Source: a virus. Taken from it: a stretch of DNA of 64,000 bases. The stretch is from the IMG/VR virus record IMGVR_UViG_3300029319_009044, positions 62,001 to 126,000 of that record, one strand, 5' to 3'. Positions 8,151 through 47,463 of this stretch are shown here, piece after piece (position 1 is the first letter of the stretch; each line of letters begins with the position of its first letter). Under the pieces are notes generated by a model. It made no database searches. It had not been told where the DNA came from and saw only the letters and a list, made by a program, of their open reading frames with translations. A program made the position numbers and the translations under genes.

Positions 8151-8603
8151 TCAATCTTCCCATGGAAACTTAAAACCTTCTTCCCACATATACGAGTTAT
8201 CTACATACCTACTTCTTGGTCCATCAGGACCTTCAGCTCTAATTCGTTCACTCAATCTACGCATTTGTAATATCCATGATGTAGGTTCACTAATACTCTC
8301 TCTATTATCTTTATCTATACGCCAAAAGAAGTCAATAGTTCCGTAACGCTTGTCTTTAGATAAGCAATTATCAGGATAATCAATACCATCAATTGTATAC
8401 CATTTCTTTTTTTTCTTTTTAGTTTTCTGTATTCCTAAATTTTTTAAAGTCTTTATTCCAAGACCTTTTACCTTAAAAAGATCATCATTATTTCTAAAAG
8501 GTCTGAATCCCATTATTCTTGCAGCTGTGGTTCTACCTACTCCGGGTATTTTACACAGTTCTCTTCTATTCATCTTGTTAAAATCTTTATAATTCAGCTT
8601 CAT
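8151..8603 (-). CDS. Helix-hairpin-helix DNA-binding protein
   Basis: Residues 8-60 form two helix-hairpin-helix motifs of the ComEA type (CKIPGVGRTTAARIMGFRPF and LFKVKGLGIKTLKNLGI), followed by a lysine run. The C-terminal 80 residues are Trp/Arg-rich and not recognised. HhH pairs bind DNA backbone non-specifically, so a DNA-binding or nuclease-associated role is likely. It is divergent from the acidic late gene at 8621, only 17 nt away. Confidence 0.6.
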   Translation of the reverse strand: MKLNYKDFNKMNRRELCKIPGVGRTTAARIMGFRPFRNNDDLFKVKGLGIKTLKNLGIQKTKKKKKKWYTIDGIDYPDNCLSKDKRYGTIDFFWRIDKDNRESISEPTSWILQMRRLSERIRAEGPDGPRSRYVDNSYMWEEGFKFPWED

Positions 8604-8606
8604 AGA

Positions 8607-8614
8607 TATAAATA
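8607..8614 (+). promoter_or_regulatory. T4-type late promoter TATAAATA
   Basis: Exact match to the T4 late -10 octamer, ending 6 nt before the ATG at 8621. It marks the acidic protein as a late gene although its neighbours on the other strand are replication genes. Confidence 0.7.
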
Positions 8615-8620
8615 TATTAT

Positions 8621-9967
8621 ATGAGTTCCTTTAATATTTACGATAATTATAGCTCCTTTAATCATTTAATCAACAGAACTGAGTTATTAGAAGAAAAAAC
8701 TTACAAAGCAATGGTTAAAGGTGCTAATCTAGGACCAGAGCTTAAAAAATATAAGACAGAAGATGGTAAAGGTTTAAGTGCTACTTCAAGAATTAAAAAT
8801 CTTATTTTAATAAGTGCTTTAGTACGTATGGATATGTTGGATGAAGATGTAGCTAAAGCTTTAAGAAAGAAAGCTACTTCATCTACTTATATTACTAATA
8901 CACTAAAGGAACTCGCACCTAAGGTACATGCTGAATTATTTGATGGTGATAACCCGGGTAGTGAAAAAGTAGTAAAGTATGTTCAAGATAATATAGAACA
9001 GTTATTACCGTTTGCAGTAAAGAATGTTACTCGTGGAGAGTTTGAAATAAAGGAAGTTGATACAGAAGAGCCAGATGATAGTGAAGCTAAAGAGTTAGAA
9101 GATGAGGTATCTGATGAAGTTAAGATAGCTCAAGGCTTAATGAGTAGTGGTGCTGATCGAGTAAAGTTAGATTTTGATGATGTTGATGTAAACATTGAAG
9201 GGTTAAATAATAAGAATGAAGTAGCTGCTAAGGTTGTAGATTTAATTAATACTACTAATAACTTAAAAGCTGAACCTACAGGGGTTGGTCTTAATATAGA
9301 AGGACCGATCGGAGCATTTGGTTCCCAAACTGATATATCTGATATGTTAACTAGAATTATTACTAGTCATTTTCCTGATGTAAGTGAAAGTGAAGTTAAG
9401 GTTACTCTTAACACTAATGAAGAGGATTATGAAGAAGGCCCTGAGCCCATAGAGCCTGAAGGACCTACTAATGAGTACGAGGAAGATATAAATGATGTAG
9501 AGGAAGATGCAGAATATAAAGGAATAAAACAAAAGTTTTCACCAAAATATGCTAAGAAGGTTGAAGATGAGTTTAAGGATCATGTAAAGCTTAGAAAGGG
9601 TAATTTAGGTGTTAAGCTACCTCCTGGTAATAAAGATGAAATTGAAGATTACAAGAAAAGAGGATATGTTGAAGATAATGAGTTTGATGACTTTGATATT
9701 GGACCTCAGTCAGATGAAAATGTACCTGATGATTATGAAGAGGTTTTAAAAGCAATGATAACAAAAGATAAAGAGAATTTTGCTAAAAATATGATCGAAG
9801 ATGAAGAAGAACTTCAAGTTGAGAGTACTACTGCAGCTTACTTAACTGAGCAAAAGCAAAGTGACAAGCGTAATAAAAAAGCAGAAGTTAAAAATCAATC
9901 CTTTAAGGAAAGATATAAGCCTAAAACACATTGGCAGTTAGAAGAGCTTAGACGTTACGGTCTTTAA
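8621..9967 (+). CDS. Acidic late protein, 448 aa, possible capsid-internal protein
   Basis: No family recognised. The N-terminus has a helical stretch ending RTELLEE before a lysine, resembling a T4 gp21 cleavage site (hydrophobic-x-Glu). A helical domain follows to about residue 120, then a long Glu/Asp-rich region (140-380) and a basic C-terminus (RNKKAEVKNQSFKERYKPK). Near residue 293 it carries EEDAEYKG, an element shared with three proteins at 22-24 kb. A lone plus-strand gene behind a late octamer amid early minus-strand genes, it is likely virion-associated; this is inference. Confidence 0.7.
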   Translation: MSSFNIYDNYSSFNHLINRTELLEEKTYKAMVKGANLGPELKKYKTEDGKGLSATSRIKNLILISALVRMDMLDEDVAKALRKKATSSTYITNTLKELAPKVHAELFDGDNPGSEKVVKYVQDNIEQLLPFAVKNVTRGEFEIKEVDTEEPDDSEAKELEDEVSDEVKIAQGLMSSGADRVKLDFDDVDVNIEGLNNKNEVAAKVVDLINTTNNLKAEPTGVGLNIEGPIGAFGSQTDISDMLTRIITSHFPDVSESEVKVTLNTNEEDYEEGPEPIEPEGPTNEYEEDINDVEEDAEYKGIKQKFSPKYAKKVEDEFKDHVKLRKGNLGVKLPPGNKDEIEDYKKRGYVEDNEFDDFDIGPQSDENVPDDYEEVLKAMITKDKENFAKNMIEDEEELQVESTTAAYLTEQKQSDKRNKKAEVKNQSFKERYKPKTHWQLEELRRYGL

Positions 9968-38322: not shown

Positions 38323-38679
38323 ATGGTAAATTTACTTGTGGATGAAGCTTTTGCTTTCGACTATATTGCTATTTTAAAGCTTAAAGCTGATAAAGGTTAT
38401 ATAAGTGAAGAAAGTATTGAACAAAACTTTAACCATTTGAGAGACCAAATTGGTAGTGATCTATTTGATACAATTATTAATTCTAATCAATTTAAAAAAT
38501 TATATGATGCTAATAGTGTAACTTTTGATGCTGTGGATGCCGCTAAAGAAGATAAAATGCTAGCTAGTGAAGTAGATAAAACAAATTACTTTAGAATGTT
38601 AGCTAAGACTGAATTGCAAAAACATTTTTTTGAAACTGATTTACAAGAAGTTAAAATCGGTTATGAGAGATTAAAATGA
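38323..38679 (+). CDS. DUF6165-like small protein
   Basis: 118 residues, helical: MVNLLVDEAFAFDYIAILKL, an interrupted Asn/Asp-rich middle (YDANSVTFDAVDAAKED), and LAKTELQKHFF near the end. I recall this pattern as DUF6165, which accompanies polysaccharide genes in bacteria; no activity is known. It overlaps the Gmd gene by 4 nt. Confidence 0.55.
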   Translation: MVNLLVDEAFAFDYIAILKLKADKGYISEESIEQNFNHLRDQIGSDLFDTIINSNQFKKLYDANSVTFDAVDAAKEDKMLASEVDKTNYFRMLAKTELQKHFFETDLQEVKIGYERLK

Positions 38680-39722
38680 AAAAAAATATTATAGTAACAG
38701 GAGTAACTGGTCAGGATGGTAGCTATATGGTAGAGCATCTTTTAGCTAATACTGATTATAATATATTAGGAGGAGTAAGAAGATTAAGTGTACCTAATTA
38801 TAAAAATATTCAACATATAAAAAATAAAAGATTTAAGCTAATAGATTTAGATCTTTCAGATGTTCATAGTATACACGAGTCTATTACTAAATATGTTCCA
38901 AGTTATTTTATTAATTTTGCCGCACAATCATTTGTAGGAGCTAGCTGGTCATTTCCACAACAAACTTTTGATGTTAATGCAACTGCAGTTTTACATATAC
39001 TAGAGTGTTTAAGAAAACATGCACCTGATTGCAGACTCTATAATGCAGGATCAAGTGAAGAATTTGGAAATATTAAATATGTTCCACAAGATGAAAAACA
39101 CCCATCTGAACCAAGAAATCCTTATGCTGTTTCAAAATGCTCAGCTAGGCAGTTTATAAAGATATATAGAGATTCATTTAATTTATTTGCTATTCAATGT
39201 TGGTTGTTTAATCATGAAAGTCCTAGAAGAGGAATTGAATTCGTTACGCGTAAAATTACTAACGGTGTAGCAAAAATACATTTAGCTTATAAAAATAAAA
39301 AAGCTGTAGAACCTATAACATTAGGTAATTTGAATGCACAGAGAGATTGGACTGATGCTCGTGATTGTGTAAGGCTTATTTGGGATATTCTTAATTTAAG
39401 AAGTCCTAATGAATATGTTATTGGTAGTGGTATATCTTATACCATAAAAGACTTTATTAATCCTTCTTTTGAATCTGTTGGTATTAAAGGTAAGTGGGTA
39501 GGAGAAGGTATAAATGAGAAATATATATATAAAGACGATGTATTAATACAGGTCTCTCCAGAGTTTTATAGGCCGGATGCTATTAATTCGTGGCAAGATA
39601 TACGTACAGCTGATATAAGCAAAGCACAAGCTGATTTAAACTGGAACTTAGATTCAAGTTTAAAGGATTTAGCCTATAGTATGGTAGAGAATGATATTAG
39701 CCTTTTACAAAATCTTGATTAA
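38676..39722 (+). CDS. gmd: GDP-mannose 4,6-dehydratase
   Basis: Short-chain dehydrogenase of the extended class making GDP-4-keto-6-deoxy-D-mannose. Rossmann motif VTGVTGQDGSYMVEHLL, catalytic NAGSSEEFG and YAVSK, and the Gmd-specific LFNHESPRRGIEFVTRKI are intact. Length 348 is normal. It supplies a precursor for fucose, perosamine or branched sugars; the C-methyltransferase directly downstream suggests the last. Confidence 0.9.
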   Translation: MKKNIIVTGVTGQDGSYMVEHLLANTDYNILGGVRRLSVPNYKNIQHIKNKRFKLIDLDLSDVHSIHESITKYVPSYFINFAAQSFVGASWSFPQQTFDVNATAVLHILECLRKHAPDCRLYNAGSSEEFGNIKYVPQDEKHPSEPRNPYAVSKCSARQFIKIYRDSFNLFAIQCWLFNHESPRRGIEFVTRKITNGVAKIHLAYKNKKAVEPITLGNLNAQRDWTDARDCVRLIWDILNLRSPNEYVIGSGISYTIKDFINPSFESVGIKGKWVGEGINEKYIYKDDVLIQVSPEFYRPDAINSWQDIRTADISKAQADLNWNLDSSLKDLAYSMVENDISLLQNLD

Positions 39723-39748: not shown

Positions 39749-41017
39749 ATGTTAGTACATAAACAAAAATGTCGTGTTTGTGGTAATACAAATCTTAAAG
39801 AGGTTATTGATTTAGGAGAGCAATACTTTCAAGGTTGCTTTGTAAAGGATGGTGTACAACCACCACCTCGAAGACCGATGCCTAATGTTATTGTACGTTG
39901 TTGCCCAGAAAGTTATGAAGATGCTTGCGGATTAGTTCAGACGCTGCACAGTATCGACACAGATTTATTATATTGCAATTATTGGTATGAAAGTGGAATA
40001 AGCCAAACTATGCGCGATCATTTAAAGAGTATAGTTGATACTGCGTTAAATATTACTGGATCTACTTCCGGTAAAGTTTTAGATATTGCTTCAAATGATA
40101 ATACTCTTCTTAGAAACTACCCTAAAGAATTTACAAAGATAGGTATTGATCCATCAAGTATTGCAGCGAGACAAACTGATAAAGATATTGAAGTTATTAA
40201 TACAACCTTTCCTTCTAAACAAGTTAATAATTTAATTGAAGATAATTCTGCTGATATAATTACTTCAATTGCTTGTTATTATGATATTGACGACCCTGTA
40301 CATTTTGCAAAAGAAATAAAAAACCTTCTTTCAGAAAAAGGAATCTGGATTTTTGAAGTAGCGTATTGGAAGTCTTTATTAGATAATTTAGCTTATGATT
40401 CTATAGTAAATGAGCATATAGTACATTACCATTTACAACCATTGCAGAAAATTATGGAGTTAGCAGATCTTAAACTTTTTGATGTGCAAAAAACTCCTAC
40501 AAATGGAGGAGCTATTATGTGTTATGTTACGCATAAAGATAATTTTGAATATGATAATCGTGAAAGAAAGCAAAATATACTTAATTTAAAAATTGAAGAA
40601 TATGAAGCATATTTAGATACAGATAAGCCATATATAGAGTTTAGAAATAAAGTCGAAAAGCATAAAGAAGACCTTACAAAATTAGTAGATGATATTGTTA
40701 ATAGACAAAATAAAACTATTCATATATGCGGTGCTTCAACTAAATTGAACACTATTTTAAATTACTGTGGTATAGGGCCTGAATTAATTCCATATGCTTC
40801 TGAGCGCAGTCCAGAAAAACATGGAGCTGAAACTATAAGTGGTATTAAGCTCATATCTGAAGAAGAGAGTAGAGCTATGAAGCCTGATTATTACTTAGTT
40901 GGGCCCTACCACTTTAAAGATGAAATAATAAAAAGAGAGACTGAATTTATAGAAAACGGTGGAGGTTTTATATTCCCATTACCAGAATTAACAGTAGTAA
41001 CTAAAGATAATATATGA
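39749..41017 (+). CDS. NDP-sugar C-methyltransferase
   Basis: Three-part protein typical of deoxysugar C-methyltransferases. It has an N-terminal zinc-binding domain (CRVCGNTNL, later RCCPESYEDACG), a SAM-binding domain (GKVLDIASNDNTLL, IGIDPSS), and a C-terminal Rossmann-like domain (IHICGASTKLNTILNY). Length 422 is standard. These enzymes methylate C3 of 4-keto-6-deoxy sugars; the Gmd product is the obvious substrate in this cluster, which would yield a branched methyl sugar. Substrate is inferred from context. Confidence 0.82.
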   Translation: MLVHKQKCRVCGNTNLKEVIDLGEQYFQGCFVKDGVQPPPRRPMPNVIVRCCPESYEDACGLVQTLHSIDTDLLYCNYWYESGISQTMRDHLKSIVDTALNITGSTSGKVLDIASNDNTLLRNYPKEFTKIGIDPSSIAARQTDKDIEVINTTFPSKQVNNLIEDNSADIITSIACYYDIDDPVHFAKEIKNLLSEKGIWIFEVAYWKSLLDNLAYDSIVNEHIVHYHLQPLQKIMELADLKLFDVQKTPTNGGAIMCYVTHKDNFEYDNRERKQNILNLKIEEYEAYLDTDKPYIEFRNKVEKHKEDLTKLVDDIVNRQNKTIHICGASTKLNTILNYCGIGPELIPYASERSPEKHGAETISGIKLISEEESRAMKPDYYLVGPYHFKDEIIKRETEFIENGGGFIFPLPELTVVTKDNI

Positions 41018-41742: not shown

Positions 41743-42482
41743 TGAAATATAATCTTAATGATATTTGTTCTGAAGAAGAAGATTTATGGCAAGATCCTTT
41801 AAAGACAAAAATATTTTCATCACTACCAACTAACAGTATCATAATTGATGGAGGTTGCAGAGACGGAGATTGGATTCATGCAGTTACTCACTACTTAAAA
41901 TTAAATTTAAATATAGAAAAAGAAAAATTTATTCTGGTTGGGATAGATCCTATTTACTCACCGAGTATTTTTAGATATAACTTTTATGTAGAGGGAGCAA
42001 TATCTAATGAAAATAAAAAACAGGCTTCCTTTTTTATAGTAGAAAACGAACCTGGTTGTAATTCTCTTAAAAGACCGAGTGATTGTTTACAAGAAAGTAT
42101 ATACGGTAATAAAAAAAGAGAAATTTCTAAAGTAGAAAAAATTAAAACATATAGATTAGATAAAATTATTAGTAATATAATTAATAGAACAGAAGGCTCC
42201 CCCGGTTATCTTAAATTAGATGTACAAGGGTCGGAACTTGAGTGCTTAGAAGGAGCTGGAAAATTTTTAAAAGAATTTATGTTTATTGAAACAGAAATAG
42301 GTTTAGATAAAAATAAAAATTTTTATGATCAAGGTAGTAAATTAGATGAAGTAATAGAAGTATTAAATAATAAAAATTTTGAACCTATACTATATACTAA
42401 ATACTCTAGCAGCCCATTGCCAGAAGGTGAAATAATATTTAAAAATAAAAATTGGAATTTAGATAAAAAGAAATGGATATAG
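41742..42482 (+). CDS. FkbM-family methyltransferase
   Basis: I place the start at the ATG that shares one base with the previous stop (TAATG); an in-frame ATG at 41715 would add nine residues inside the upstream gene. Motifs: NSIIIDGGCRDGDW, LVGIDPIYS, and the FkbM signature GYLKLDVQGSELECLEGA. FkbM enzymes O-methylate sugars or polyketides. It is the third methyltransferase in a row, suggesting a heavily capped glycan. Confidence 0.8.
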   Translation: MKYNLNDICSEEEDLWQDPLKTKIFSSLPTNSIIIDGGCRDGDWIHAVTHYLKLNLNIEKEKFILVGIDPIYSPSIFRYNFYVEGAISNENKKQASFFIVENEPGCNSLKRPSDCLQESIYGNKKREISKVEKIKTYRLDKIISNIINRTEGSPGYLKLDVQGSELECLEGAGKFLKEFMFIETEIGLDKNKNFYDQGSKLDEVIEVLNNKNFEPILYTKYSSSPLPEGEIIFKNKNWNLDKKKWI

Positions 42483-43258
42483 TTATACAAGGTAAAGTAT
42501 TTCCAAATACTTACGAAACTGCTAAATGTTATACTACATTAGATTTTATAGATAAAGTAATTATATCTACTTGGGATAATGAAACGTTAGAATCAGATAA
42601 TAAAAATGTAGTAGTTGTTAAGAGCCCTGTGCCTTATACTCCACCTATGAATTTAAATTTGCAATTAGTATCTGTCAATGAAGGACTAAAACATGTCACT
42701 TCTGAATATACTATGAAGTTTAGAAGTGATCAAATGGTCATGAAAAGTAGTATGAAAATGCTAAAGAGATTTGTAGATAAAAAAGGTTTTGATTGCGATA
42801 TAAAATATACTGATGGTTCAGGTCCTAAAGGTAAAATTTATGCGGTGGGTATGGGTAGTCATTTTCCTTACCACCCTCAGGATCATATCTTTTGGGGTCA
42901 TACTGAAGATATTAAATCTCTATATAGTTGCCCTCTTTATAAAGAAGGGGAGCCAATAACACCAACATGGGAAGGTGGTTTTGAAAATGAAACAGTAAGA
43001 ATACCTTGTTATTTTGGATCACATTATTTTGCTAAATTTAATTCTGAAGTATATGAGCATATAGAAAATTATAAAGATTTTTTATTAGATACATCTCCAA
43101 GTAGATATAGAGCTATGCAAATATCAGAAGAATTAAGAGATAAAATTTTTGGTGTGTTTCCTAGAATTAAAATGTGGTGGGAGAAATACAATACAGGATA
43201 CAAGTATGATCTATATGAACCACAAGGAGAATATTATTATGACGAAGAGTGGGAATAA
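42473..43258 (+). CDS. WavE-like glycosyltransferase
   Basis: Begins MDIVIQGKVFPNTYETAKCY and continues with KVIISTWDNE, NLNLQLVSVNEGLK and YTMKFRSDQMVM, the order of motifs in WavE-type LPS core biosynthesis proteins. A later FGSHYFAKF segment and a very acidic C-terminus (PQGEYYYDEEWE) complete it. 261 residues. It probably contributes one linkage of the glycan; acceptor unknown. Confidence 0.65.
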   Translation: MDIVIQGKVFPNTYETAKCYTTLDFIDKVIISTWDNETLESDNKNVVVVKSPVPYTPPMNLNLQLVSVNEGLKHVTSEYTMKFRSDQMVMKSSMKMLKRFVDKKGFDCDIKYTDGSGPKGKIYAVGMGSHFPYHPQDHIFWGHTEDIKSLYSCPLYKEGEPITPTWEGGFENETVRIPCYFGSHYFAKFNSEVYEHIENYKDFLLDTSPSRYRAMQISEELRDKIFGVFPRIKMWWEKYNTGYKYDLYEPQGEYYYDEEWE

Positions 43259-43724
43259 GCTTATTGCACATAGAGGTAATACTACTGGAAAATCAAAGCA
43301 CGAGAATGACCCTCAATATATTTTAAATGCTTTAGATCAAGGTTATGATGTAGAAGTGGATGTAAGTTATAGAGATAAAAACTTTTGGTTAGGTCATGAC
43401 AATAATAAATATAGAGTAAATTTAGATTTTTTAAGCGATGAAAGAATATGGTGTCATTTAAAAGATAAAGAAAGTTTAAAGCAAATAATTGACATTATAG
43501 GTAGCGAAGAAATAAATTACTTTTGGCATACTTCTGAAGATTTTGTAATAACTTCAAAAGGATTTTTATGGCATCATTCTAAATGCCCTCTTTCAGATCT
43601 TACAAGTAAATCTATTATAGTACTTCCGGAAAATAAAAAAATATTTCCAAGAAGAAATAAACTATACAAAAAAATAAATCATTGCTATGGCATATGTAGT
43701 GATTATATTAAGATGTATGTTTAA
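43239..43724 (+). CDS. Glycerophosphodiesterase-like TIM-barrel protein, short
   Basis: The start at 43239 (MTKSGNKLIAHRGNTTG) is chosen because the longer frame lies entirely inside the preceding gene. HRGN and ENDPQYILNALDQGYDVEVDVSYRD reproduce the H-R-G and E-x-D metal motifs of GDPD enzymes, then FWLGHD and a HHSKCPLSDL segment. At 161 aa it is much shorter than typical GDPD (about 250), so part of the barrel is missing or the fold is minimal. It begins the sugar-phosphate gene run. Confidence 0.6.
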   Translation: MTKSGNKLIAHRGNTTGKSKHENDPQYILNALDQGYDVEVDVSYRDKNFWLGHDNNKYRVNLDFLSDERIWCHLKDKESLKQIIDIIGSEEINYFWHTSEDFVITSKGFLWHHSKCPLSDLTSKSIIVLPENKKIFPRRNKLYKKINHCYGICSDYIKMYV

Positions 43725-44184
43725 GCTTTTAATTTTAGATGTAGATGGGGTACTTACAACAGGCTGTAAAACATATGACCTCGAAGGTAATGTTATTAGT
43801 AAGGAATTTAACGATAAAGACTTTACTGCAATAAAACGTTTTAAAGAGAAGGGATTAAAGGTATGTTTCTTAACTGCTGATGATAGAGTTAATCGTATAG
43901 TAGCAAAAAATAGAAATATTGATTTCTACTACGTAAGAGAAATGACTAAAAAAAATAAAGTTGAGACACTTCCTTATCTTACTAGTAAATATAAAGTTAC
44001 TTTAGATGAGATAGCATATATAGGTGATGATCTACCTGATTTTGATATTATAAAAAAATTAAAACATACTTACTGTCCAAGTGATGCAATACTAAAAATT
44101 AAAAACCAAGTTAAAACGATCCTCGAAAGAAGGGGTGGTACTGGAGTTATTGCAGAACTATATGATAATATATTTAATGAATAG
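43717..44184 (+). CDS. KdsC-like HAD phosphatase
   Basis: Start at the ATG at 43717, giving MFKLLILDVDGVLTTG; the longer frame has no HAD function upstream. HAD motifs: DVDGVLT (nucleophile Asp8), FLTADD, KVETLPYL and IGDDLPDFDIIKK. Length 155 equals capless KdsC phosphatases, which release phosphate from Kdo-8-P or other sugar phosphates. In this module it would be the phosphatase step between kinase and nucleotidyltransferase. Overlaps on both sides are 8 nt. Confidence 0.82.
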   Translation: MFKLLILDVDGVLTTGCKTYDLEGNVISKEFNDKDFTAIKRFKEKGLKVCFLTADDRVNRIVAKNRNIDFYYVREMTKKNKVETLPYLTSKYKVTLDEIAYIGDDLPDFDIIKKLKHTYCPSDAILKIKNQVKTILERRGGTGVIAELYDNIFNE

Positions 44185-44866
44185 TATCTCTCTATATGGG
44201 CATTTAACTACTGATACTATTTTTGATGGTAATACAACTTATAATTCGGTAGGAGGTTTAGGTAATGTATGGTTTATGTTATCTAAAATCTGTAAGAATT
44301 ATCAAGTAAATGTTGAGCCTACAAATGTTGGAGAAGCATTAATTTTAGTCAATAAAGATAAAGCAGAAAGATCATCAATAGCAAATTTAAATAAAATAAA
44401 AAGAACACCAGTCATTAAAGATTCAGAATGGTCACATATACTTTACGTAAATGAATTAGATGATATATCATTTATTAAAGATGTAAGAAATAAAAGTAAG
44501 ATAGTTTCTATAGATATTTGTAAAGGTAGACCATTTAAACAGTTTGATATTTTAAAATATATTGATTACTTTTTTATATCTGATGAAGATTTATTTATGG
44601 ATGTAAATGAGTTAGCTAAAAAAGTTAAGGGTTGGGTTATCTTACATCATAAAGGCGGTAGTAGTTGTTTAAGTAAAGATAAAGTATTTGATACATCTAC
44701 ACCAGTTATTGATGGTATAAATGTTTTAGGAGCAGGGGATATGTTTGCTGCAGCAACAATAAACTGCATTCTCAATACAGTTGATAAATCTAATTTGCAG
44801 TATAATATAAAAGAAGCGCACTCTATTACTTCAAAAATTTTAGCTGAAATAAATGAAAAAAACTAA
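44177..44866 (+). CDS. PfkB-family sugar kinase
   Basis: Start at 44177 (MNSISLYGHLTTDTIF), which overlaps the phosphatase by 8 nt; the longer frame is less plausible. The ribokinase-fold signatures are TYNSVGGLGNVWF (substrate glycines) and NVLGAGDMFAAATI (anion hole and catalytic Asp, about 183-196). At 229 aa it is compact compared with about 300 for ribokinase or HldA. It would phosphorylate the anomeric carbon of a sugar phosphate in an HldA-like step. Confidence 0.75.
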   Translation: MNSISLYGHLTTDTIFDGNTTYNSVGGLGNVWFMLSKICKNYQVNVEPTNVGEALILVNKDKAERSSIANLNKIKRTPVIKDSEWSHILYVNELDDISFIKDVRNKSKIVSIDICKGRPFKQFDILKYIDYFFISDEDLFMDVNELAKKVKGWVILHHKGGSSCLSKDKVFDTSTPVIDGINVLGAGDMFAAATINCILNTVDKSNLQYNIKEAHSITSKILAEINEKN

Positions 44867-46019
44867 TATACTAATTCCTATAGCTGGTAGAGGTCAACGT
44901 TTTGTTGATCAAGGCTATGTAATGCCTAAACAACTTATAATGGTTGATGATAAGCAAATGATTGATTGGAGTTTAGATTCAATTCTTAAGAAAGAAGAAT
45001 GTAATCTTATATTTGCTATAAGAAGGGATCATATAAGTAACTTTTCATTAGATAAAATTTTAAAGAGTAGGTATGGAGATGATATTAAAATTATTATTAT
45101 AGATAAGATTACTAGAGGGTCAGTAGAGACCTGCTTACAAGCAGAAAAATATATTGATAATGATAATCCTTTAATAGTATATACTCTAGATGTTTTCTTT
45201 GAACCATCTTTTGATCCTACAAAAATAGATCATAATATTAATGGTTCAATTTTAACATTTAAAAGTAACAACCCTGCTTACAGTTATGCATCACTAGATA
45301 AAAATAAAAACGTAATAAAAACAGCTGAAAAAGAAGTTATCAGTGAAAATGCTGCTGTTGGTGTATATACGTTTACTAAAGGTAGTGAATTTGTAAAGTA
45401 TGCTAAGTTAATGATAGACTTAGATCTTACTACAAATAATGAATTTTATATTTGCCCATTATATAATTTAATGATTGAGGATGGTTGTACTATCAAGACT
45501 AAAGATGTAGAAAAAATGCATCTCATGGGAACGCCTGAAGAGCTAAATTTTTTCGTAACTCATACATTAAAAACTTTTGGTGATAAACCAATCGCTCTCT
45601 GTGCAGATCATTCAGGATGGGATCTTAAAGAACAAGCTAAATCTATTTTAGATAAATACGAGTTACCATATACTGATTTTGGTACTTTTGTTAATAAAGA
45701 TTGCGATTATAATGATTACGTTTTTCAGGTTACAGATTTTATTAATAAAGGTAATTGTGATTTTGCTTTAGCTTTTTGTAGAACTGGTCAAGGTATGAAT
45801 ATATCTGGTAATAAGCAAAAAGGTATCCGAAGTGCTTTAGTATTTAATGAATACACAGCTGAATATGCTGTTAGGCATAATTGCGCAAATTATTTTTCTA
45901 TACCAAGTAAATTTGTAGATAAAGAGTTATTAGATGATATGATTTATATCTGGATAACTACTACTTTTGATGGAGGTAGACATGCGACCCGTATTCAAAA
46001 AGCAGAAACTGGTAAGTAA
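44853..46019 (+). CDS. Fusion of sugar nucleotidyltransferase and RpiB-type isomerase
   Basis: Residues 1-235: NTP-transferase fold, ILIPIAGRGQRFVDQGYVM with PKQLIMVDD, then VYTLDVFFEP, NAAVGVYTF and TPEELNFF. Residues 245-388: RpiB/LacAB fold, ALCADHSGWDLKEQAK, FCRTGQGMNISGNKQKGIR with the Cys at the RpiB catalytic position, EYAVRHNCANY with the matching His, and FDGGRHATRIQKAE. Both active sites look intact. The chain unites the isomerase that would open the pathway with the nucleotidyltransferase that would close it. I know of no standard family with this fusion. Confidence 0.82.
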   Translation: MKKTNILIPIAGRGQRFVDQGYVMPKQLIMVDDKQMIDWSLDSILKKEECNLIFAIRRDHISNFSLDKILKSRYGDDIKIIIIDKITRGSVETCLQAEKYIDNDNPLIVYTLDVFFEPSFDPTKIDHNINGSILTFKSNNPAYSYASLDKNKNVIKTAEKEVISENAAVGVYTFTKGSEFVKYAKLMIDLDLTTNNEFYICPLYNLMIEDGCTIKTKDVEKMHLMGTPEELNFFVTHTLKTFGDKPIALCADHSGWDLKEQAKSILDKYELPYTDFGTFVNKDCDYNDYVFQVTDFINKGNCDFALAFCRTGQGMNISGNKQKGIRSALVFNEYTAEYAVRHNCANYFSIPSKFVDKELLDDMIYIWITTTFDGGRHATRIQKAETGK

Positions 46020-46363
46020 TGGAAGTAAAGCATATAGATAATTTTACTAATGGTTGGTTTATTGGTGATTTTGAACCATCATTATTTAAAAATCCTTTTT
46101 TTGAGGTCGCTCATCAACACCATAAAAAAGGTAAAATAGGTGATAAACATTTTCATAAACTTACAACTGAGGTTACGTATATTGTTACTGGTTCAATGAA
46201 GATAAATGATCTTGCACTTAATAGAGAGCGATTTTTAAAAGCTGGTAATATGTTTACTTTCTTTCCTAACGAAGTATCTGATGTAGAGTTTTTAGAGGAT
46301 TCTGATCTTATAGTAGTAAGATGGCCATCTATACCTACTGATAAATATATGGTTGAACTATAA
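46019..46363 (+). CDS. Cupin-fold protein
   Basis: 114-residue single-domain cupin: VAHQHHKKGKIGDKHFHKLTTEVTYIVTG carries the cupin-1 histidines (written here only as positions 33-60 with HQHH, HFH, E), and AGNMFTFFPNEVSDVEFL is the second motif. It begins on the last base of the fusion gene's stop. Sugar-isomerising or epimerising cupins are common in NDP-sugar clusters, so a tailoring step is likely; the exact reaction is unknown. Confidence 0.65.
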   Translation: MEVKHIDNFTNGWFIGDFEPSLFKNPFFEVAHQHHKKGKIGDKHFHKLTTEVTYIVTGSMKINDLALNRERFLKAGNMFTFFPNEVSDVEFLEDSDLIVVRWPSIPTDKYMVEL

Positions 46364-46386: not shown

Positions 46387-47463
46387 ATGAAGAAAGCTTT
46401 AGTTTTAGGTGCCGGTGGCTTTATCGGTAATCATTTAGTATCACGTCTTAAAAAAGAAGGTTATTGGGTAAGAGGAGTTGATTTAAAAACTCCTGATTAT
46501 TGTGAATCTGAAGCAGATGAATTTATCTATGGTGCTGCTGGTGATTTAAGAGATCAAAATAACTGTAAACGTTTAGTAAAGTTTGATGGTGAGCAAGGTA
46601 ATTATTATAAAAGTGTACCTGAGCAATATAAAAGACCATTTGATGAAATTTATCAACTAGCTGCTGATATGGGCGGTGCTGGTTTTATTTTTACTGGAGA
46701 AAATGATGCTGATATTATGCATAATTCTGCTTCTATAAATCTTAATATTTTAAATGCAGTAAAAGAATTTAATGAACATAGATTTAATGATAATGTAGAT
46801 AATGCTGATGCATATAATAAAAGCAAAACTAATGACACTAAAATATTTTATAGTAGTAGTGCTTGTATGTATCCTGAACATAATCAGTTAGATCCTGATA
46901 ATCCTAATTGTGAGGAATCATCAGCATACCCCGCTAACCCGGATTCAGAATATGGTTGGGAAAAACTATTTAGCGAACGACTTTATTTAACTTATAATAG
47001 AAATCATGGCATACCAGTTCGCGTAGCTAGATTTCATAATATTTTTGGACCACTAGGTACATGGAATGGTGGTAGAGAAAAAGCACCAGCTGCTATTTGC
47101 AGAAAGGTAATTGAAAGTAGTGGTGAAATTGAAATATGGGGTGACGGAAAACAAACTAGAAGCTTTCTATACGTAGATGAATGTGTTGAAGGTATTAGAC
47201 GTTTAATGGATTCTGATTTTACTGGTCCTGTTAATATTGGTTCAGATGAAATGGTAACTATTAACGAGTTAGTAGATATAGCCTGTTCAGTAGAAAATAA
47301 ACAAATTACTAAAAAGCATATTGATGGTCCATTGGGTGTAGCTGGTAGAAATTCTGATAATAAGCTTATTAGTGAAAAGGTTGGCTGGGCTCCAAATTAC
47401 CCTTTAGCTAAAGGTATTGAAAAAACATATAAGTGGATTAAAGAGCAAGTTAATTTAAAATAA
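46387..47463 (+). CDS. GDP-mannose 3,5-epimerase-like
   Basis: Extended SDR with VLGAGGFIGNHLVSRL (NAD site), IYQLAADMGGAGFI, IFYSSSACMYPEHNQL, AYPANPDSEYGWEKLFSE and FHNIFGPLGTWNGGREKAPA; these segments are characteristic of plant-type GDP-mannose 3,5-epimerase. Length 358 fits. With GDP-mannose from the host it would give GDP-L-galactose or GDP-L-gulose. It has its own promoter at the end of the sugar cluster. Confidence 0.85.
   Translation: MKKALVLGAGGFIGNHLVSRLKKEGYWVRGVDLKTPDYCESEADEFIYGAAGDLRDQNNCKRLVKFDGEQGNYYKSVPEQYKRPFDEIYQLAADMGGAGFIFTGENDADIMHNSASINLNILNAVKEFNEHRFNDNVDNADAYNKSKTNDTKIFYSSSACMYPEHNQLDPDNPNCEESSAYPANPDSEYGWEKLFSERLYLTYNRNHGIPVRVARFHNIFGPLGTWNGGREKAPAAICRKVIESSGEIEIWGDGKQTRSFLYVDECVEGIRRLMDSDFTGPVNIGSDEMVTINELVDIACSVENKQITKKHIDGPLGVAGRNSDNKLISEKVGWAPNYPLAKGIEKTYKWIKEQVNLK

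Follow-up and report, generated by a model that had tools for sequence, protein, structure and literature searches.

We examined a window of 64,000 nucleotides of viral DNA, bases 62001-126000 of the IMG/VR record IMGVR_UViG_3300029319_009044 (170,908 bases in all). The portal protein of this phage is about 29% identical to the portals of T4-like cyanophages and of other T4-like phages. At positions 43239-46363 the window carries five plus-strand genes, encoding a GDPD-like protein, a HAD phosphatase, a PfkB kinase, a fusion of a nucleotidyltransferase (NT) with an RpiB-type isomerase, and a cupin; the HAD, PfkB and NT-RpiB genes form the core of what is referred to here as the module. The initial annotation had described the last four as consecutive overlapping genes. 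Their open reading frames (ORFs) were confirmed between 43717 and 46363, and each adjacent pair overlaps by 1-14 nt. The GDPD-like gene (43239-43724), which opens the range, had gone unmentioned.

Enzyme families and active sites

The bifunctional NT-RpiB fusion (44853-46019) combines an RmlA-like sugar nucleotidyltransferase (residues 1 to about 240) with an RpiB-type sugar-phosphate isomerase (residues 245-388). The NT domain matches PF00483 (9e-7, above gathering), the RpiB domain matches PF02502 (9e-37) and TIGR00689 (above cut-off), and the whole fusion matches PHROG 3980 at 1.9e-81, a family annotated as 'unknown function'. The fusion proposed in the initial annotation is thereby confirmed. 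In nine fusions, G12, R16, P25-K26, D113 and E159-K160 of the NT domain are invariant and the signature of sugar-1-phosphate nucleotidyltransferases is present (G-x-G-x-R...PK, metal Asp, EK). Likewise invariant in the RpiB domain are D252-H253, C309, T311, H342-N343, G374-G375-R376-H377 and R380; the domain is a full RpiB/LacAB domain with catalytic Cys, His and the phosphate-binding GGRH..R. Against the ribose-5-phosphate isomerase equivalog TIGR01120 it scores 99.6 bits, under the cut-off of 138.65. Over 117 contigs, CR[TS]GQG stands in place of the usual CGTG in 112, and GGRH..R is likewise found in 112. Among solved structures, the closest to the NT domain is the uncharacterised sugar nucleotidyltransferase 4EVW of Vibrio cholerae (1.5e-30), for which we know of no assigned function. 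The GenBank label 'phosphatase' on gene 206 of phage Bellamy (MF351863.1 162488-163645) and on gene 192 of SynMITS9220M01 (L021) is unsupported by the NT and RpiB domains. Other arrangements of related domains were also seen: tandem NT-NT fusions in the Synechococcus phages Bellamy (L022:14223-15797) and S-SM2 (L025:7995-9563), and, in the cyanophages S-CAM9, B23 and relatives, a different HAD (HAD_2) fused to a related NT.

The KdsC-type C0 capless HAD phosphatase (43717-44184, 155 residues) starts at ATG 43687 in the ORF list, and its homologues align from 43717. Its top NCBIfam match is KDN-9-phosphate phosphatase (8e-26), with KdsC/YrbI at 1e-22, and its PDB matches are 2p9j, 3e81 and 1j8d. 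The bit scores lie below the curated equivalog cut-offs (91 against 180 for KDN-9-phosphate phosphatase, 81 against 107 for KdsC). D8, D10, K81 and G103-D104-D105 are invariant, and fold class and motifs are those of a C0 HAD (KdsC/KDN-9-phosphate phosphatase), in agreement with the earlier KdsC-like assignment. The short PfkB/ribokinase-fold sugar kinase (44177-44866, 229 residues) is weak in Pfam (PF00294, 6e-4, below gathering), but D13, G26, N30, D113 and GxGD are invariant in 75 homologues and its structure model, built from an alignment of 74 sequences, reached a predicted local distance difference test score (pLDDT) of 96.4. Rows from named phage records were left out of the alignments behind the structure models. 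With its ribokinase fold and GAGD catalytic motif the protein belongs to the PfkB family, as initially annotated. On alignment, all tested motifs of the module enzymes are intact.

The two remaining genes are less clear-cut. The minimal GDPD-like phosphodiesterase (161 residues) belongs to PHROG 34507 and had no match in Pfam. H11-R12, E39, D41 and H53 are invariant in 66 homologues. Its AlphaFold2 model (pLDDT 92.8) has GDPDs as top PDB fold matches at a Foldseek E of only 3e-3; the barrel is minimal, and the HR..E.D..H residues and the top fold matches agree with GDPD at modest E. The small putative cupin (46019-46363, 114 residues) matches PHROG 24762 at 3.7e-42. Its label is suggested by PHROGs (phrog_7851, cysteine dioxygenase, 0.001), an HxH...E motif and relatives (E 1e-23 and 3e-26) that are plasmid-borne in bacteria and adjoin NT genes. 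In Pfam and NCBIfam it had no match at E 0.01.

Co-occurrence in other viruses

The fusion, PfkB and HAD served as separate baits in IMG/VR, and neighbouring genes were mapped with profiles; counts refer to at most 80 matches per bait and are samples. With the PfkB bait, all 56 testable loci had HAD and NT no more than 3.5 kb away, and 47 of them had the NT-RpiB fusion. With the HAD bait, PfkB was present in 61/62 loci and NT in 60/62 within the same distance. These 56- and 62-locus counts are not deduplicated; merging overlapping loci gave 131 distinct contigs with PfkB and NT, 127 of which carry HAD, and in 113 NT-RpiB forms one open frame. The GDPD-like gene (near PfkB/NT in 117/131) and the cupin (within 5 kb in 74/131) are conserved partners of the module. 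Of the 113 contigs with RpiB, 93.8% have PfkB and NT at most 60 nt apart; between neighbouring genes from HAD through PfkB and NT to the cupin, the median gaps are -1 to -4 nt. The linkage of the module genes exceeds chance. The same order is present in two cultured cyanophages, Bellamy (genes 204-207) and SynMITS9220M01 (genes 190-192); in SynMITS9220M01 the module is followed by an open frame for the cupin (L021:13152-13469), which is annotated only as a hypothetical gene of shorter length. The 131 distinct contigs among the matches listed, together with these two phages, bear out co-occurrence in related phages. No description of the module was found in the literature.

Cellular genome contigs were searched with two RpiB-derived peptide patterns, and only two relatives were found, both on contigs of metagenome-assembled genomes: DIAL01000084.1 (L027) and PACT01000001.1 (L028). 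Both contigs are short and phage-like in appearance. L028 has ferredoxin-like and high-light-inducible-like ORFs at its end, it seems identical to a 15,998-base contig listed as viral in IMG/VR (L058), and the kinase occurs in only 1/114 genomes of its family. Given the phage-like contigs, the viral listing and this single genome, a cellular origin was rejected and both were treated as misbinned phage DNA. Within these limited scans, which used the two peptide patterns only, no cellular set of KdsC-HAD, PfkB and NT-RpiB was found. NT relatives about 35% identical are located on alphaproteobacterial plasmids, in cassettes with GDPD-like and HAD_2 proteins and, in some, cupin or WavE. On plasmids L249, L250, L252 and L253 the NT genes are annotated as 'glycosyltransferase family 2', and adjoining hypothetical proteins resemble larger GDPD-type enzymes. 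An RpiB gene near NT on a Rhizobium plasmid was set aside, as it belongs to an adjacent erythritol-catabolism-like operon and not to the NT cassette.

A proposed sugar-activation pathway

In the proposed scheme, the RpiB domain would convert ketose and aldose phosphates into each other, and PfkB would phosphorylate the sugar a second time, probably at C1. The KdsC-type HAD would then take off the terminal phosphate, and the NT domain would couple the resulting sugar-1-phosphate to a nucleoside triphosphate. It is rather probable that the phage operon makes a nucleoside diphosphate (NDP) sugar in this way from a sugar phosphate of the pentose phosphate pathway, to supply the glycosyltransferases of the surrounding cluster. 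Most likely, this product serves to alter the host surface glycan during infection. For related marine myophages, a change of the host surface has likewise been proposed as the role of lipopolysaccharide (LPS) genes in their host-recognition cluster (PMC7029224). Direct evidence for a link between the nucleotidyltransferase and isomerase activities comes from the NT-RpiB fusion. Beyond the computationally observed families, intact active sites, fusion, tight operon-like order and co-occurrence, we infer one shared pathway, the order of its reactions, the sugar (C5-C7, and not the ADP-heptose of HldE) and the nucleotide. A role in sugar activation in general is likely, whereas a role in heptose activation is unlikely. 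The conserved module is real, and the new viral route to an activated sugar put forward in the initial annotation is a proposal.

The cluster around the module contains glycosyltransferases and, on the plus strand, further sugar-related genes: a GDP-mannose 4,6-dehydratase homologue (38676-39722; PF16363 1e-90, PDB 2z1m 7e-71), a sugar-type C-methyltransferase (39749-41017; PF08421, PF13489 and PF08484), a WavE-family LPS protein (42473-43258; PF07507 8e-14) and a GDP-mannose 3,5-epimerase homologue (46387-47463; PDB 2c59 8e-91). A search for the photosynthesis gene family PF00124 in the genome of the module phage gave no match. The T4-type late promoter TATAAATA had 12 matches where 22 were expected and was uninformative. 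Elsewhere in the T4-like phage genome, a DUF1549/DUF1553 (PSCyt2/PSD1) protein (L260:9565-11304) is followed by a DUF1501 protein (L260:11306-12508), a pair presumably associated with Planctomycetes and Verrucomicrobia, which may hint at the host of the phage.

RpiB and transketolase both act on sugars of the pentose phosphate pathway, and both vary around a constant HAD-PfkB-NT core. When 99 kinases were placed in a tree, 14 rows without RpiB fell into a single clade (support 99/91), and in 9 of these 14 a split transketolase (TktN PF00456, TktC PF02779) lies within 5 kb of NT. Another four rows without RpiB do not group together but fall between relatives that have the fusion; of these, at least L017 breaks off within the NT gene. 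Eleven rows elsewhere in the tree, from two separate parts of it, have RpiB as well as transketolase, and the clade of the window and Bellamy has RpiB alone. RpiB absence and transketolase presence are associated (Fisher p 2.6e-4 on contigs, kinship uncorrected). Split transketolases of about 210 + 160 residues were observed beside HAD-PfkB-NT in L203, L206, L220, L240 and L246. As the supported clade of 14 RpiB-less rows shows, RpiB is not obligatory. Four points have to be held against the proposed pathway. The isomerase step is either not obligatory or supplied otherwise in the RpiB-less clade; RpiB and transketolase are not simple alternatives, because eleven loci carry both; the conserved GDPD-like partner has no place in the scheme; and some members of the NT family act on phosphates other than those of sugars.

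In a pentose version of this scheme, RpiB or transketolase would provide ribose-5-phosphate, PfkB would convert it to ribose-1,5-bisphosphate, HAD to ribose-1-phosphate, and NT to an NDP-pentose donor. Ribose-5-phosphate is made or used by transketolase as well as by canonical RpiB, the solved kinase closest to PfkB by profile is MJ0406, a ribose-1-phosphate kinase model is matched by 27 of the 75 module kinases, and gnd and zwf are located 5-7 kb upstream in SynMITS9220M01. However, these kinase matches are weak and unspecific, profiles for 6PGD (gnd) and transketolase had no match in the genome of the window's own phage, and CR[TS]GQG in place of CGTG may mean another RpiB substrate. The pentose version is possible, though doubtful. 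Alternatively, as in the pairing of the RpiB family with PfkB in LacAB and LacC, RpiB would convert an aldose phosphate to a ketose phosphate and PfkB would phosphorylate the ketose, giving a nucleotide-linked ketose. The kinase model matched fructokinase, a pyrophosphate-dependent ribokinase-family kinase, YdjH, ketohexokinase and ribokinase in the PDB (E about 1e-11 to 1e-10), and its fold is closest to fructokinase, ketohexokinase and YdjH. Yet at 9-17% identity these matches reflect the ribokinase fold in general, and NDP-ketoses of such type are, to our knowledge, rare. We regard this ketose route as quite improbable.

The heptose question

In the initial annotation the module had been equated with NDP-heptose synthesis in its four steps, GmhA being replaced by RpiB and GmhB by a KdsC-like phosphatase. 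The enzyme families stand; the heptose analogy is weakened. About 50 kb away and outside the window, the same genome encodes a split HldE pair (G000:C1:157860-158252 and 158242-158988; L260:7861-8253 and 8243-8989), which matches heptose-1-phosphate adenylyltransferase TIGR02199 (1.8e-47) and heptose-7-phosphate kinase TIGR02198 (1.7e-38) under the curated cut-offs, yet by far as top matches. The annotation of SynMITS9220M01 places a heptose kinase (of the GHMP type according to Pfam), a phosphoheptose isomerase (GmhA) and a heptose epimerase (HldD) about 8 kb from the module. TIGR02198 at E 1e-3 was matched by 0/75 module kinases. For these three reasons the module is unlikely to replace the ADP-heptose route. 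A SIS_2 search of the module phage's own genome found none.

It is possible that the module makes a second heptose nucleotide, other than ADP-heptose. In such a variant route, RpiB would isomerise sedoheptulose-7-phosphate in place of GmhA, PfkB would phosphorylate C1, HAD would replace GmhB, and NT would make a heptose nucleotide, possibly GDP-linked or with an altro/allo heptose. The step logic fits, and the transketolase beside the module in some loci could supply sedoheptulose-7-phosphate. Moreover, the GDP-heptose enzyme HddC is likewise of the NTP_transferase type. Nevertheless, we judge this route unlikely in view of the separate canonical HldE pair, the separate heptose-type genes of SynMITS9220M01 and the failure of TIGR02198 to match the module kinases. 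In addition, HAD matches GmhB (NF006506/PRK08942) at 0.0016 only, against 8e-26 for KDN-9-phosphate phosphatase, and the nearby 4,6-dehydratase is closer to GDP-mannose enzymes (2z1m) than to heptose 4,6-dehydratase (7us5, 2e-26).

Relation to published viral rpiB genes

An enrichment of rpiB (K01808) in a marine viral metagenome, on cyanophage-assigned scaffolds, was reported by Enav et al. and read as support for nucleotide synthesis; that the gene is present on such scaffolds was called striking, since cyanobacteria use rpiA (PMC4022391). On that reading, which draws on this enrichment, viral rpiB raises the supply of ribose-5-phosphate and phosphoribosyl pyrophosphate for phage nucleotide synthesis (PMC4022391). 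For the module it is very improbable: in the T4-like marine phages examined, RpiB is the C-terminal half of a nucleotidyltransferase in a surface-glycan cluster, and among 70 further CRTGQG loci that match RpiB, 64 have it fused to NT (5 of the 6 others are truncated where the analysed sequence ends), although these are loci gathered here and not the scaffolds of PMC4022391. A canonical CGTGIGM-type pattern gave 11 stretches in IMG/VR, all with stand-alone RpiB and without module genes, and the CRTGQG pattern gave at least 120; the patterns differ in degeneracy, and the ratio is only indicative. In two 65-kb Synechococcus phages RpiB is annotated as a separate isomerase.

In the T4-like phages examined, rpiB is half of a proposed sugar-activating enzyme and not a stand-alone gene of the pentose phosphate pathway. 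This bears on the published puzzle of rpiB on cyanophage scaffolds although cyanobacteria use rpiA (PMC4022391), and some conclusions on how viruses control the nucleotide metabolism of their hosts may have to be revised. The fusion at the core of this widespread phage gene set carries only the labels 'unknown function' or 'phosphatase', and the proposal would give the set a concrete, testable pathway. More tentatively, it may be speculated that the CR[TS]GQG-type RpiB-NT, the minimal PfkB, the KdsC-type HAD and the GDPD-like enzyme form a mobile pathway of marine T4-like phages, for which the searches made here gave no cellular counterpart, to an undescribed nucleotide sugar for a phage-specific surface glycan. 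In that case, many of the genes counted as 'rpiB' in viral metagenomes from the sea would belong to surface-glycan synthesis.

Comparison with known systems

The module resembles the ADP-/GDP-heptose pathway (GmhA, HldE or HddA, GmhB, HldE or HddC) in its logic of isomerase, kinase, phosphatase and nucleotidyltransferase, and it shares the PfkB fold of the kinase with HldE and the NTP_transferase fold with HddC. It differs from the ADP-heptose pathway in that it has RpiB and not the SIS-fold GmhA, a KdsC-type HAD and not GmhB, and a kinase missed by TIGR02198. The alphaproteobacterial plasmid cassette (GDPD-like, HAD_2, NT-NT) has a related NT, a weakly related GDPD-like protein and, in some cases, cupin and WavE, but its HAD is of another type and no KdsC-type HAD, PfkB or fused RpiB was detected in it. 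In contrast to the module fusion, 4EVW is a chain of 255 residues without an RpiB domain. The module HAD is like KdsC/KDN-9-phosphate phosphatase (C0 HAD) in its full-length match and HAD motifs, whereas it scores under the curated cut-offs and the module genes lack a KdsA/KdsB-type partner. Compared with RpiB/LacA/LacB isomerases, the module domain sits C-terminal of a nucleotidyltransferase and has CR[TS]GQG in place of CGTG-x-G, but it keeps the whole domain, the catalytic Cys, Thr and His, and GGRH..R.

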